From Chryseobacterium sp. (GTDB lineage Bacteria; Bacteroidota; Bacteroidia; Flavobacteriales; Weeksellaceae): a stretch of DNA of 35,467 bases. The position numbers and the translations under genes are program-made. The DNA lies in the NCBI GenBank assembly GCA_015478785.1, contig JADMKO010000043.1, forward strand, positions 1 to 35,467, in the 5' to 3' direction. Positions within the stretch are counted from its first letter, which is position 1, and every line of letters begins with the position of its first letter. The notes beneath the pieces are model-generated. The model worked only from the letters and a program-made list of their open reading frames with translations, searched no databases and was not told the DNA's origin. Of this stretch, positions 3,018 to 14,190 are shown piece by piece.

Positions 3018-3728
3018 TTATTCGAACAATTCTGAAGTGTCCAGAACCGAAACTTTTCCGTCTTCACAACGGATGGCTTCTCCCGGAAAATTCTGAATCA
3101 TGTGGTAATCATGAGTAGCCATCACTACTGCAGCGTGATTTTCAATCGCAACTCTTTTCATCAGCGTCATAATCTCGTTTGATGTTTCAGGATCCAGGTT
3201 TCCTGTAGGTTCGTCTGCAAGAATGAGTTCAGGTTGATTCAAAAGTGCACGTGCAATCGCCACACGCTGTTGTTCTCCGCCGGAAAGTTCGTGCGGCATT
3301 TTGTGTTTTTTGGTTTTCATTCCCACACTTTCCAATACATCATTGATCCTTTCGTCTATTTTCTCTTTCTCTTTCCATCCCGTCGCTGCCAGAACAAATT
3401 TGAGGTTTTTCTCAACCGTTCTATCCGGCAATAATTGAAAATCCTGAAACACGATTCCCAGTTTTCTTCGAAGATTTGGAATATCCGAAGTCCGCAGTTT
3501 TGCCAGATCGAATCCTGCCACACTTCCTTGTCCTCCGGAAAGCGGAATATGTCCGTAGAGTGTTTTCAGCAATGAGCTTTTCCCCGAACCCGTTTTTCCG
3601 ATCAGGTAGCAGAATTTTCCTTTTTGAATGTAGAGATCTACATTGCTGAGTACAGTGAAATTTTTCTGTGCAATAGTAGCATTACTGAGGTTGATGATAT
3701 TATCTCCCGTTTCGTTTCTGTGCGGCAT
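3018..3728 (-). CDS. ftsE: ABC transporter ATPase, FtsE type
   Basis: This 236-residue ABC ATPase has Walker A GKTGSGKSS (44-52), Q-loop FQDFQLL (94-100), signature LSGGEQ (148-153), Walker B ILADEP (169-174) and the switch His in MATHDY. The QDFQLLPDRTVEKN segment is typical of FtsE, the cytoplasmic ATPase that pairs with the membrane protein FtsX to control peptidoglycan hydrolases at the division site. LolD-type ATPases are the nearest alternative. No ftsX lies next to it in the window; in Bacteroidota the two genes are often apart. The ATG at 3728 is the only good start, with an N-terminal extension of about 10 residues ahead of the first strand. Confidence 0.83.
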   Translation of the reverse strand: MPHRNETGDNIINLSNATIAQKNFTVLSNVDLYIQKGKFCYLIGKTGSGKSSLLKTLYGHIPLSGGQGSVAGFDLAKLRTSDIPNLRRKLGIVFQDFQLLPDRTVEKNLKFVLAATGWKEKEKIDERINDVLESVGMKTKKHKMPHELSGGEQQRVAIARALLNQPELILADEPTGNLDPETSNEIMTLMKRVAIENHAAVVMATHDYHMIQNFPGEAIRCEDGKVSVLDTSELFE

Positions 3729-11175: not shown

Positions 11176-11856
11176 ATGGGAAAAGTGTATTGCAATGTGG
11201 TGTTTACGGCCATTCTAGAAGATCATCATCAAGAATCTGTCATGATTTCTCAATTGCTTTTTGATGAAACTGCGGAGATTCTGGAAGAAAAGGACGGATT
11301 CTACAGAATTGCTTCAGATGATGACGAAACAGAAGGCTGGATTGATCACAAAAACGTAATAAAAATTTCCGGTGCGGAGACTTTAGAAAACATAAAAGAA
11401 AAATTCCGAAACCGATCAGAAACGCTTCCCGTGTTCTGGCCGGATTTACCTGAAAAAATATTACCAGTTTCTAGAGACAATATTGCAAAAACTGCAAAAA
11501 GCCTCGTTAATATTCCTTATTTGTACGGAGGCAGAAGCGGCTTTGGTCTGGATGCAAGCGGCTTTGTCCAATTCGTATTCAGACAACATGGAATGAAACT
11601 GCCGAGAACGCTTTCCCAACAAGCTGAACAGGGAGAAGCTCTATTTTTTGCCGGCGAAAGCAACGCTGGCGATCTCGCATTTTTTGAGGACGAAAATGGC
11701 GAAATAATTCACTCCGGCATTATGCTGAATATGCATGAAATCATCCATTGTTACGGTAAAGTACGGATTGACTCGGTAGATTCTTCCGGAATTTTCAACA
11801 AAGAATTAGGACGGCATACGCACCGGCTTCGTTTTATTAGAAATATTTTGGACTAA
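11176..11856 (+). CDS. SH3-NlpC/P60 fold protein with catalytic Cys replaced by Ala
   Basis: The 226-residue protein has an N-terminal bacterial SH3-like segment (about 1-65, ending EGWIDHKNV) and a C-terminal NlpC/P60 (C40) domain (about 100-226). The YLYGGRSGFGLDASGF segment aligns with the active-site block that in C40 cysteine peptidases reads YxWGGRS..DCSGF, so the nucleophile position is A127 (codon GCA at 11554-11556). The two histidines of the triad appear kept (H179 in IIHSGI, H191 in IIHCYGKVRID). Active members cut gamma-D-Glu-diaminopimelate bonds in murein peptides; this one would be inactive or only bind. No signal peptide is evident. It sits between the O-methyltransferase and waaA. 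Confidence 0.85.
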   Translation: MGKVYCNVVFTAILEDHHQESVMISQLLFDETAEILEEKDGFYRIASDDDETEGWIDHKNVIKISGAETLENIKEKFRNRSETLPVFWPDLPEKILPVSRDNIAKTAKSLVNIPYLYGGRSGFGLDASGFVQFVFRQHGMKLPRTLSQQAEQGEALFFAGESNAGDLAFFEDENGEIIHSGIMLNMHEIIHCYGKVRIDSVDSSGIFNKELGRHTHRLRFIRNILD

Positions 11857-11920: not shown

Positions 11921-13153
11921 ATGCAGAGGATTTACAATATTTTCATCACTTTAATGATTTTCGGAATGAAAATCGGGGCGTCATTTAATTATAAACTGAA
12001 GCGCGGACTGGCCGGCAGAAGGCAAAGCTGCGATATTCTTAAATCAGTTTTCTCAGAAACCGACCGTGTCATCTGGATGCATGCGGCCAGCCTTGGCGAG
12101 TATGAACAAGGCCTTCCGGTTTTGGAAAGTTTGAAAAATAGATATCCCCATTATAAAATTCTCATTACATTTTTTTCACCTTCAGGATATGAAGTCGTGG
12201 CTAAAAAAAATACCATTGCAGATGCGGTGTGTTATCTTCCTTTCGACAAACCCGCTTGGATTAATGAATTTCTTTCGAATTTCAAGCCCATCATTTTTTT
12301 CACCGTAAAATATGAATATTGGTACAATCTGTTGCAGAAACTCAACAGAGATCAGGTAAAAATCTATGTGATTTCTTCGCTTTTTTATGAAAGACAAATC
12401 TTTTTCAAACCTTATGGCAAATGGTTTGTGCGCCAGCTGAGGAAAAATGTAGACTGGTTTTTTCATCAGACCAATACTTCGTATGCTTTAGCCAAAACCA
12501 TCAAACTGGATCAGTCGTCTATTTCCGGAGATACAAGATACGACAGGGTTCGACAGATAAAAGAACGAGATCCTCATGTCAATTTTATTTCTGAATTTAA
12601 AGGAGCAAAACCATTGCTCGTCTTCGGAAGTTCGTGGGAAACGGAGGAAGAAATTGCCGTGATCGTTTCTGCAAAATTACCGGAATTGAAAATTATCATT
12701 GCGCCTCATGACTTGAAAAGAGTGGAACATCTTCAACATCTTTTTCCGAATGGGGTTTTATATAGTGAAACAACCGTTGATCAACTTGACTTTCAGGTGA
12801 TGATTATTGACAGTGTTGGTTTGCTTTCTAAAATATATTCTTATGCTGATCTCGCGTTCGTTGGCGGAGGTTTTCATTCGGCGGGACTTCACAATATTCT
12901 GGAAGCGGCAACTTTTGGAACTCCCGTCCTTTTCGGAAACCGATACCAAAAAAATCCGGAAGCTGATGACCTCATCAGGAATAAAGGAGGTGCTTCGTTT
13001 ATCGATGAAAATTACGCTGCCGATTTTATTCTGAAGATTATGAATGATAAACAATTATTGGAAGAAATGGGAAAGAATGCCGGTGATTTTATAAACTCGC
13101 AACCCAATTCTACTGAACTTATCATGAAAAAAATTACTTCGGATTTGGGATAA
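11921..13153 (+). CDS. waaA: 3-deoxy-D-manno-octulosonic acid (Kdo) transferase
   Basis: The 410-residue protein is a GT30-family glycosyltransferase. An N-terminal membrane-anchoring hydrophobic segment is followed by WMHAASLGEYEQGLPVL (with the conserved Glu of the acceptor site near residue 60), the KYEYWYNLL block, and the C-terminal Kdo-binding region FVGGGFHSAGLHNILEAA with the PVLFGNRYQKNPEA loop. WaaA (KdtA) adds Kdo to lipid A precursor on the cytoplasmic face of the inner membrane. Length is normal. It lies 64 bp after the NlpC/P60-like gene on the same strand, in a small envelope-related cluster. Confidence 0.94.
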   Translation: MQRIYNIFITLMIFGMKIGASFNYKLKRGLAGRRQSCDILKSVFSETDRVIWMHAASLGEYEQGLPVLESLKNRYPHYKILITFFSPSGYEVVAKKNTIADAVCYLPFDKPAWINEFLSNFKPIIFFTVKYEYWYNLLQKLNRDQVKIYVISSLFYERQIFFKPYGKWFVRQLRKNVDWFFHQTNTSYALAKTIKLDQSSISGDTRYDRVRQIKERDPHVNFISEFKGAKPLLVFGSSWETEEEIAVIVSAKLPELKIIIAPHDLKRVEHLQHLFPNGVLYSETTVDQLDFQVMIIDSVGLLSKIYSYADLAFVGGGFHSAGLHNILEAATFGTPVLFGNRYQKNPEADDLIRNKGGASFIDENYAADFILKIMNDKQLLEEMGKNAGDFINSQPNSTELIMKKITSDLG

Positions 13154-13256: not shown

Positions 13257-13721
13257 ATGAAAAAAATATTATTTTTTACAATGATGGCGGGAATGCTGAT
13301 GACAGTTTCTTGCAGAAATGATGACAAAGAGGAGGAAGTGACCTCGGTAATCGGGAACTGGAAAGTTCAGAAAATGATTACTAAAGGAATGATAACCTAC
13401 GGTGGGATTTCACTTCCAGCTAATACTTCATCTGACTCAGATTGTGTAAAGCAAAGCAAACTAGATCTGAACGCAGATAAAACCGGACATGCCTTGGTGA
13501 AAAATGATACTACAGGAACTTGTGAGGTTTTAGGAGACGAAAGTTTTACTTATGTATATGATCCTGAAACTAAAATTATTACTGTTAAATCCAATGGAAC
13601 TTCCGAAGATATTAAAGTGATCAAAGTTACCAATAGCGAATTGATCATTGAGCAACCGGCTGACATGCAGACGCCACAAGGTACTTTTAATGGAACGATA
13701 ACTCTAAATATGACAAAATAA
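13257..13721 (+). CDS. Lipocalin-like lipoprotein (first of a tandem pair)
   Basis: The 154-residue protein has a signal peptide ending in lipobox MTVSC (lipidated C19) followed by the strongly acidic stretch RNDDKEEE. The mature part has the lipocalin-like pattern SVIGNWKVQKM, a Cys in SDSDCVKQSKLDL, an LNADKTGHALV strand and a second Cys in TGTCEVL; the rest is beta-rich. Many Flavobacteriia have such small lipocalin-like lipoproteins of unknown ligand. The acidic run after the lipid Cys resembles the Bacteroidota lipoprotein export signal, so surface exposure is likely (inference). The next gene, a diverged paralogue, starts 10 bp after its stop. Confidence 0.8.
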   Translation: MKKILFFTMMAGMLMTVSCRNDDKEEEVTSVIGNWKVQKMITKGMITYGGISLPANTSSDSDCVKQSKLDLNADKTGHALVKNDTTGTCEVLGDESFTYVYDPETKIITVKSNGTSEDIKVIKVTNSELIIEQPADMQTPQGTFNGTITLNMTK

Positions 13722-13731
13722 CTTTATTTAA

Positions 13732-14190
13732 ATGAAAAAGATAATTTTATTTTTTGCAGGGCTGCTGTTGCTTACAACACTGAGCTGTGATAATGAAGAC
13801 CCGATTGTATATCCTGAAGTTACCGGCGTATGGAAACCCATACAAATGGTAAAAACAGTAGTGAATAATGTGAGCGCACCTACTTCCGAAACTTTCCTGT
13901 ACAGCGATTGCCAGCAGGAATCCCGATGGGAATTCCGGGAAGACGGAACAGGTAAAATATTGTGGAGAGTACAATTGAATCCAACTTCCTGCACCACGGC
14001 TTTTGAGCAGAATCTGCAATATGATTATAACAACAGCAATGGTGATATTGTCATTAATTACATAACGCACCAGGAAAGAGGCAAAGCGATGGACATCACT
14101 GAAACCAGCATGAATTTGAAAATAGAAACGATAAATGCTGATACTCAGGTGTATGAATCTCAGGTGTATACACTTGTTAAAGTTCAGTAA
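13732..14190 (+). CDS. Lipocalin-like lipoprotein (second of a tandem pair)
   Basis: The 152-residue protein begins with a lipoprotein signal peptide (lipobox TTLSC, C19) followed by DNED. The fold pattern matches the preceding gene: VTGVWKPIQM near the start of the barrel, YSDCQQESRWEF, DGTGKILW and a second Cys in PTSCTTAF, with similar spacing of the two cysteines, so a disulfide bridge is plausible. The two proteins are clearly diverged, so this is an old duplication. Ligand and function are unknown. The pair forms a two-gene transcript ended by a long hairpin 20 bp downstream. Confidence 0.78.
   Translation: MKKIILFFAGLLLLTTLSCDNEDPIVYPEVTGVWKPIQMVKTVVNNVSAPTSETFLYSDCQQESRWEFREDGTGKILWRVQLNPTSCTTAFEQNLQYDYNNSNGDIVINYITHQERGKAMDITETSMNLKIETINADTQVYESQVYTLVKVQ

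Follow-up and report, generated by a model that had tools for sequence, protein, structure and literature searches.

The window analysed here is the whole 35,467-nucleotide stretch of contig JADMKO010000043.1 from Chryseobacterium sp., in which a YkfC-like NlpC/P60 gene without the catalytic cysteine lies at 11176-11856 on the forward strand. The open reading frame (ORF) runs from ATG to stop without an internal stop and encodes 226 amino acids (P0001). Codon 127, at 11554-11556 (+) within the block PYLYGGRSGFGLDASGFVQF, is GCA and encodes alanine, at the site where C40 peptidases carry cysteine. The replacement, read from the codon and from the comparison of orthologues, had been noticed in an original prediction made from the sequence alone, and both the GCA codon and the intact frame were borne out. 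Pfam profiles matched the protein with NLPC_P60 (60.9 bits, cut-off 23) and with the DPP VI-type SH3_16 domain (27.9 bits, cut-off 25.8). The N-terminal SH3b domain covers approximately residues 1-66 (11176-11373, +), according to SH3_16, the strands of a structural model and a profile alignment to 3h41, in agreement with the SH3-like N-terminus of the original prediction. The NlpC/P60 domain covers approximately residues 98-226 (11467-11853, +; Pfam 114-205, structural matches 98-226).

An AlphaFold2 model, obtained from an alignment of 56 sequences, had a predicted local distance difference test score (pLDDT) of 88.1 and a predicted template modelling score (pTM) of 0.82. The model matched two gamma-D-Glu-diamino acid endopeptidases over their full length, 2evr (Z 16.9, 3.2 A over 188 residues) and 2hbw (Z 16.2, 3.7 A over 191 residues), as well as DPP VI, 3pvq (Z 15.6, 9.5 A over 188). 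Trichomonas NlpC1, 6bim, was level with the best endopeptidase matches (Z 17.1, 5.1 A over 191). The full-length matches among solved endopeptidases are proteins with one or two SH3b domains. The structural modelling that had been proposed with the original prediction gave a confident C40-type fold, and both the Pfam score and the papain-like structural matches place the protein in the NlpC/P60 (C40, PF00877) fold family.

Residues were mapped to Bacillus cereus YkfC by a HMMER profile alignment to 3h41, with a 22-residue offset between the 3h41 chain and the published numbering that was deduced from Cys238. The pairs of YkfC and window residues are Tyr118 and Thr52, Tyr226 and Tyr115, Trp228 and Tyr117, Asp237 and Asp126, Cys238 and Ala127, Ser239 and Ser128, Arg255 and Arg144, Asp256 and Thr145, His291 and His179, and His303 and His191. 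The histidines that the original prediction regarded as kept, His179 (11710-11712, +) and His191 (11746-11748, +), thus align with the triad histidines of YkfC, and both are present in 27/27 Cys-less and 151/151 Cys-bearing sequences. As a C40 peptidase, the window protein therefore has the triad histidine and the third polar residue but not the cysteine nucleophile. PMC2954226 describes Tyr118 of the SH3b domain and Asp256 as the defining residues of the YkfC subfamily, and Tyr118, Trp228 and Asp256 as the residues that hold L-Ala-D-Glu. The window protein resembles the YkfC/DPP VI subfamily in that SH3b precedes NlpC/P60 and in that 3h41 and 3pvq align over both domains, but the two defining residues are replaced by Thr52 (11329-11331, +) and Thr145 (11608-11610, +). 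Tyr117 (11524-11526, +) occupies the site of Trp228, which is Trp in 151/151 distinct Cys-bearing orthologues. In orthologue terms, Ser128 is retained, while Tyr52, Trp117 and Asp145 have become Thr, Tyr and Thr.

The loss of the cysteine is widespread. At E<=0.001, 57 of the 59 relatives gave a match in a protein search. We counted 56 of these 59 as having the orthologue, since G016 gave only a weak paralogue-type match and G044 and G050 gave none. Position 127 was Cys in 41 of the 56 orthologues and Ala, Asp, Ser or Asn in the other 15. The original prediction had named cysteine in all close orthologues as the outcome pointing to a recent mutation or a sequencing error. Instead, the congener G001 (93% identical) has Ala as well, and so does the next nearest orthologue (52%). 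Sequencing error or a private mutation was therefore rejected, as the loss is common to the congener and to many other genera. One genus with seven genomes contains five with Asp and two with Cys. Within the family, 318 of 320 genomes matched the window protein at E<=1e-25, each with a single match except G060, which has two.

Loss of the cysteine was also found outside the family, in a Polaribacter contig (L119, Ala), in UBA7954 (L136, Ser), in G351, G402 and G444 (Ser), in G046 (Asn) and in G043 and G056 (Ala). Cys was present in all 22 further loci of one search and in ten loci, L056-L065. A pattern search for Cys-less forms matched in 37 of 395 genomes; it ignored codons starting with T, so that Ser TCN, among others, was missed. 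Of the 30 loci fetched, seven contained the orthologue, four of them known before, and the remaining 23 did not match the window protein; among the pattern matches without a locus, the place in G444 alone was fetched. In the window genome, which is 92.6% complete, there are three NlpC/P60 genes. The two others have the motif DCS and match the window protein weakly and over part of the domain, and a take-over by either of these Cys-bearing paralogues was rejected.

The maximum-likelihood gene tree, which covers 89 rows and was built with ten active-site columns removed, requires 11 changes between Cys and non-Cys, of which at least seven are forced by well-supported (starred) branches. On a previous tree, with 79 rows, 6 changes were counted, at least five of them forced. 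The 89-row tree flags a meeting of long branches (L258 with L279), and support is below 80 (open) for 21 of its 86 inner branches. State changes on a tree do not tell loss from regain, but we adopted the reading as losses, since C40 proteins usually carry Cys.

Residue conservation was compared in 178 distinct orthologues, 151 Cys-bearing and 27 Cys-less, with identical sequences merged. The set was enriched in Cys-less forms by the pattern search, so that 27/178 is not a frequency. Two paralogues (L031, L032) and second copies from the same genomes (L033, L076, L077, L084, L107) were left out of the rows of pocket residues; further second copies (L162-L165, L192-L195, L253, L254, L256, L282-L297), other genes (L196-L251) and matches below 100 bits were left out of the set as well. 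No exception to Trp117, Ser128 and Glu22 occurs among the 151 Cys-bearing orthologues, and 97% of them have Tyr52. In the 129 Cys rows of the pocket-residue comparison, position 145 is Asp in 112, Glu in 14 and Asn in 3. The 27 Cys-less sequences retain these residues much less often: Tyr52 in 5 (22 differ, one by a gap), Trp117 in 10 (17 differ), Ser128 in 15 (12 differ) and Glu22 in 17 (10 differ). Cys-less forms mostly also lose the equivalents of YkfC Tyr118, Trp228, Ser239 and Asp256. In contrast, His179, His191 and Asp126 are retained in all 27, and Arg144 in 25. The replacing residue at position 127 is most often Ala (14/27). Parsimony counted 15 changes at Trp117 and 10 at Tyr52 in the 27 Cys-less rows, against none and three, respectively, in 62 Cys rows; at His179 and His191 no change was counted in either group.

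Selection on the frame was estimated as the ratio of nonsynonymous to synonymous substitutions (dN/dS) by the Nei-Gojobori method, for codon pairs chosen by hand. The ratio was 0.135 for the window species and its Ala congener; six comparisons among Asp species ranged over 0.12-0.21, and each of two mixed pairs (Asp with Cys, and Polaribacter Ala with Cys) gave 0.12. Eight computable Cys pairs gave 0.03-0.105, and two more Cys pairs were saturated at synonymous sites. All 27 Cys-less sequences align over nearly their whole length and have one open frame of 226-256 amino acids. The Cys-less forms are thus under purifying, somewhat relaxed selection. With Ala127 and a dN/dS of 0.135, the window protein combines a lost catalytic residue with a frame under purifying selection, as in a pseudoenzyme, and is predicted to be inactive. 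It evolves fast relative to its neighbour: it shares 41-47% identity with family relatives and 93% with the congener, compared to 64-81% and 98% for the O-methyltransferase next door.

Taken as a whole, the data lead us to regard the protein as probably a recurrent pseudoenzyme, which can neither cut nor hold a murein peptide in the manner of YkfC and is kept for a non-catalytic role, presumably as a protein partner in the cytosol. Loss of the nucleophile together with the S1/S2 pocket residues would abolish both cleavage and a YkfC-like hold of the peptide. We infer this because of the published residue roles and because the C172A variant of Chlamydia YkfC is inactive; according to PMC9928106 it did not cleave the tripeptide in vitro and was inactive in a surrogate in vivo test. 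Purifying selection nevertheless retains the protein, presumably for a non-catalytic job that would be performed by the NlpC/P60 core round His179, His191 and Asp126 and by the C-terminal half. A protein-protein partner or a regulator in the cytosol seems the most likely form of this job. Since catalysis was lost repeatedly while the gene and the core were retained, active orthologues may share such a second job. More tentatively, the widespread flavobacterial YkfC-like protein could be a two-job protein that combines cutting of murein tripeptides with a cytosolic, non-catalytic function of the NlpC/P60 core and its histidine pair; this would be why at least seven lineages dropped catalysis and kept the protein.

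Several observations weigh against the reading as a selected pseudoenzyme. The dN/dS values of Cys-less forms exceed those of the computable Cys pairs, which implies that constraint has been relaxed and leaves some probability for gradual decay. The loss of the pocket is incomplete: Trp117 and Asp145 persist in the Polaribacter Ala form and in all five Asp species, the latter having kept Tyr52 as well. Such forms would fit an order of events in which the nucleophile is lost before the pocket. Independent-pair sign tests on the pocket residues comprised seven and five pairs, too few for significance; for Tyr52, four pairs went the same way and none the opposite way in both sets. The kept histidines could be merely structural. 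Furthermore, G016 and G313 had no match at 1e-25 among the 320 family genomes, so the role of the protein is dispensable at least there. In the Cys-less G043, a 397-amino-acid C40 frame lies near a 391-amino-acid MR_MLE frame (a possible epimerase), and a take-over by this longer paralogue is possible in that genome.

We also compared metabolic correlates of the Cys loss. LdcA (PF02016) occurs in 53 of the 59 relatives, with both species of the window genus among them, and does not separate the Cys states. AmpG (TIGR00901) matched in 13 of 59 and is no discriminator either, and dipeptide epimerase, told from MenC and enolase by match range rather than by sequence, appears patchy across the relatives. 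A ligase class resembling Mpl and MurC (the first class) was present, among the matches listed, in none of 12 Cys-less versus 18 of 23 Cys-bearing family relatives, and over all orthologue-bearing relatives in 2 of 15 versus 36 of 41 (uncorrected Fisher tests). A second, MurC-like ligase occurred in all 12 Cys-less family relatives and in the Cys-bearing G005, G011, G026, G027 and G035. The 35 family genomes were classed by ligase sequence (17 with the second class, 18 with the first), and none had both classes among the matches listed. G016, which lacks the orthologue, also carries the second MurC-like ligase. For genomes beyond the family, the class was mostly read from ligase match ranges, and for eight from sequence. 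There, the Cys-less G043, G056, G343, G351 and G444 have the first class, G344 and G402 have MurC at the places fetched, and G046 has a 321-amino-acid frame nearer to the first class. The first class was initially labelled canonical Mpl, an uncertain identity: it scored higher on the MurC model (211 versus 151 bits), and the solved structures that it matches best carry the label MurC, with a chain labelled Mpl in sixth place. Of five independent pairs, about 2.3 supported the ligase association and none opposed it, which is not significant given the tree, and we treat the association as a lead only. Should the first class be Mpl, the change of ligase may have come first, and the peptidase may then have become superfluous too in lineages with an altered re-use of murein tripeptide. 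The five Cys-less genomes outside the family that have the first class speak against this.

Some further observations were made on the second MurC-like ligase. In G000 it lies on contig C181:6689-7711 (L232:360-1733) and scores 322.6 bits with TIGR01082 (cut-off 335.1); G000 also has MurC on contig C158. By sequence, it was recognised in 18 family genomes, 17 with the orthologue and G016, none of which has the first class among the matches listed, and pairs from different genera reach about 62-84% of the self score. In the Cys-less G003 the ligase and the pseudoenzyme gene lie about 6 kb apart on contig C1 (205664-206788 and 212512-213207), while in the other genomes compared the ligase is on another contig or far from the pseudoenzyme gene.

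The ligase distribution bears on an account that we consider improbable, in which the murein-peptide branch is unused, constraint is relaxed and the gene is heading for loss without a new role. The raised dN/dS of the Cys-less forms, the second ligase in 12/12 Cys-less family relatives with none of the Mpl/MurC-like class among the matches listed, and the same ligase type in G016, where the orthologue is missing, would all agree with slow decay. However, all 27 Cys-less frames are open at dN/dS values of 0.12-0.21, and His179, His191 and Asp126 are unchanged in 27/27 while Trp117 changed 15 times in the same rows; moreover, the ligase association is not significant given the tree. The original prediction suggested a binding or regulatory role in murein metabolism. 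Its notion of an intact frame without the nucleophile stands, but murein binding is disfavoured because the residues with which YkfC holds the dipeptide are mostly lost together with Cys, including in the window protein. We thus consider it unlikely that the protein continues to bind murein tripeptide, left uncleaved, and serves murein metabolism as a sensor or sink, even though Asp126 (27/27), Arg144 (25/27) and the histidine pair are retained, the five Asp species, near their Cys-bearing congeners, still have Tyr52, Trp117 and Asp145, and RipD sets a precedent: according to PMC12067865 this NlpC/P60 protein is non-catalytic and binds peptidoglycan. The window protein has Thr, Tyr and Thr at the sites of YkfC Tyr118, Trp228 and Asp256, and Tyr52 and Trp117 vary freely across the Cys-less lineages.

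That the protein is still an enzyme, with another residue as nucleophile or with the histidine pair serving a different chemistry or a metal site, appears very improbable. His179 and His191 are retained without exception, Cys192 adjoins His191 in the window protein, and four Cys-less sequences have Cys at the Tyr52 site, all of which would suit such an enzyme. Yet Cys192 occurs in only 5 of 27 Cys-less sequences, Cys6, the sole cysteine column occupied in most Cys-less forms, is equally common in both groups (0.89 of Cys-less versus 0.90 of Cys-bearing sequences), Ala is the commonest replacement (14/27), and the Cys-less L006 is without any cysteine. A relocated cysteine was rejected as a general answer, as no cysteine column specific to the Cys-less forms replaces Cys127. 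The four sequences with Cys at the Tyr52 site (L136, L166, L174, L178) come from different genomes. The change from Tyr to Cys requires one transition and probably reflects mutational ease, yet it places a thiol at the old pocket.

The nearest known system is the YkfC/DPP VI subfamily of C40, with B. cereus YkfC (3h41), BT_1314 (3pvq), the Nostoc (2evr) and Anabaena (2hbw) enzymes and Chlamydia CT127. The window protein shares its SH3b and NlpC/P60 layout, full-length fold and triad histidines, and Cys-bearing orthologues carry the YkfC signature residues; unlike the subfamily, the window protein has neither the nucleophile nor equivalents of Tyr118, Trp228 and Asp256. RipD (Rv1566c) of Mycobacterium tuberculosis is similar in its NlpC/P60 fold and in Ala at the site of the catalytic Cys, and its structure 4jxb matches our model (Z 14.7, 2.4 A over 114 residues). 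It acts outside the cytosol. PMC12067865 gives the RipD triad as Ala-Ser-Glu, so that RipD has lost its histidines too, whereas the window protein has Ala-His-His; furthermore, RipD is described there as binding peptidoglycan, and the window protein differs from it in having no signal peptide. The NCBIfam RipD model scored 29.2 of 215 bits. The protein resembles pseudoenzymes generally in having lost a catalytic residue while its fold is under selection. Unlike these, its loss recurs inside one orthologous group (11 changes, at least seven forced), and much of the same pocket is erased in most Cys-less lineages. Non-catalytic NlpC/P60 proteins are thus already known from RipD, but a recurrent YkfC-type case with both histidines was not found in the literature searched. 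Likewise, no description of Cys-less YkfC-like proteins in Flavobacteriales was found in the titles and abstract starts that the search covered, with subscription papers mostly outside it.

This repeated loss of one nucleophile among orthologues amounts to an experiment by nature, in which residues required to cleave murein peptides are separated from those that serve another purpose, and it suggests that an enzyme of cell-wall recycling has a second function open to testing. For such work, the genus of seven genomes, two with Cys and five with Asp, supplies closely related forms to compare. In addition, annotation as C40 peptidase overstates murein-peptidase activity in this order, as about one quarter of the sampled orthologue-bearing relatives (15/56) are without the nucleophile.

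By eye, no signal peptide was seen at the start of the window protein or of the Cys-bearing orthologues inspected. The open frame starts 8 codons upstream of the ATG, which leaves no room for an upstream signal peptide, and the model already places residue 3 in its first SH3 strand. The original prediction was correct on this absence but treated it as odd, whereas the inspected Cys-bearing orthologues and the YkfC proteins of B. subtilis and Chlamydia are alike in this respect. B. subtilis YkfC is described as lacking a signal peptide in PMC2954226, and Chlamydia YkfC as lacking one and thought to be cytosolic in PMC9928106. Unlike the B. subtilis form, B. cereus YkfC carries a signal peptide.

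Upstream of the pseudoenzyme gene, an O-methyltransferase gene (PF01596; 10523-11170, +) ends 5 bases before its ATG, and the two genes are possibly co-transcribed. Downstream lies a waaA-type Kdo transferase gene (11921-13153, +), recognised by Pfam (PF04413). These are the neighbours named in the original prediction. In the fetched family neighbourhoods the O-methyltransferase adjoins the orthologue in 13/13, with or without Cys, and waaA is downstream in 10/13; the O-methyltransferase was not found in three non-family neighbourhoods. Because Cys-bearing relatives have the same neighbourhood, gene context does not track the loss of Cys, and the proximity to waaA that the original prediction had pointed out is nothing special.

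Elsewhere in the window, an ORF of 236 amino acids at 3018-3728 on the reverse strand is 99.6% identical in the congener, above its immediate neighbours; it had no match in the other neighbourhoods compared, stretches that may not reach so far. Past waaA, two small Lipocalin_4 genes lie in tandem (13257-13721 and 13732-14190), of which the first is 66% and the second 97% identical to its counterpart in the congener.
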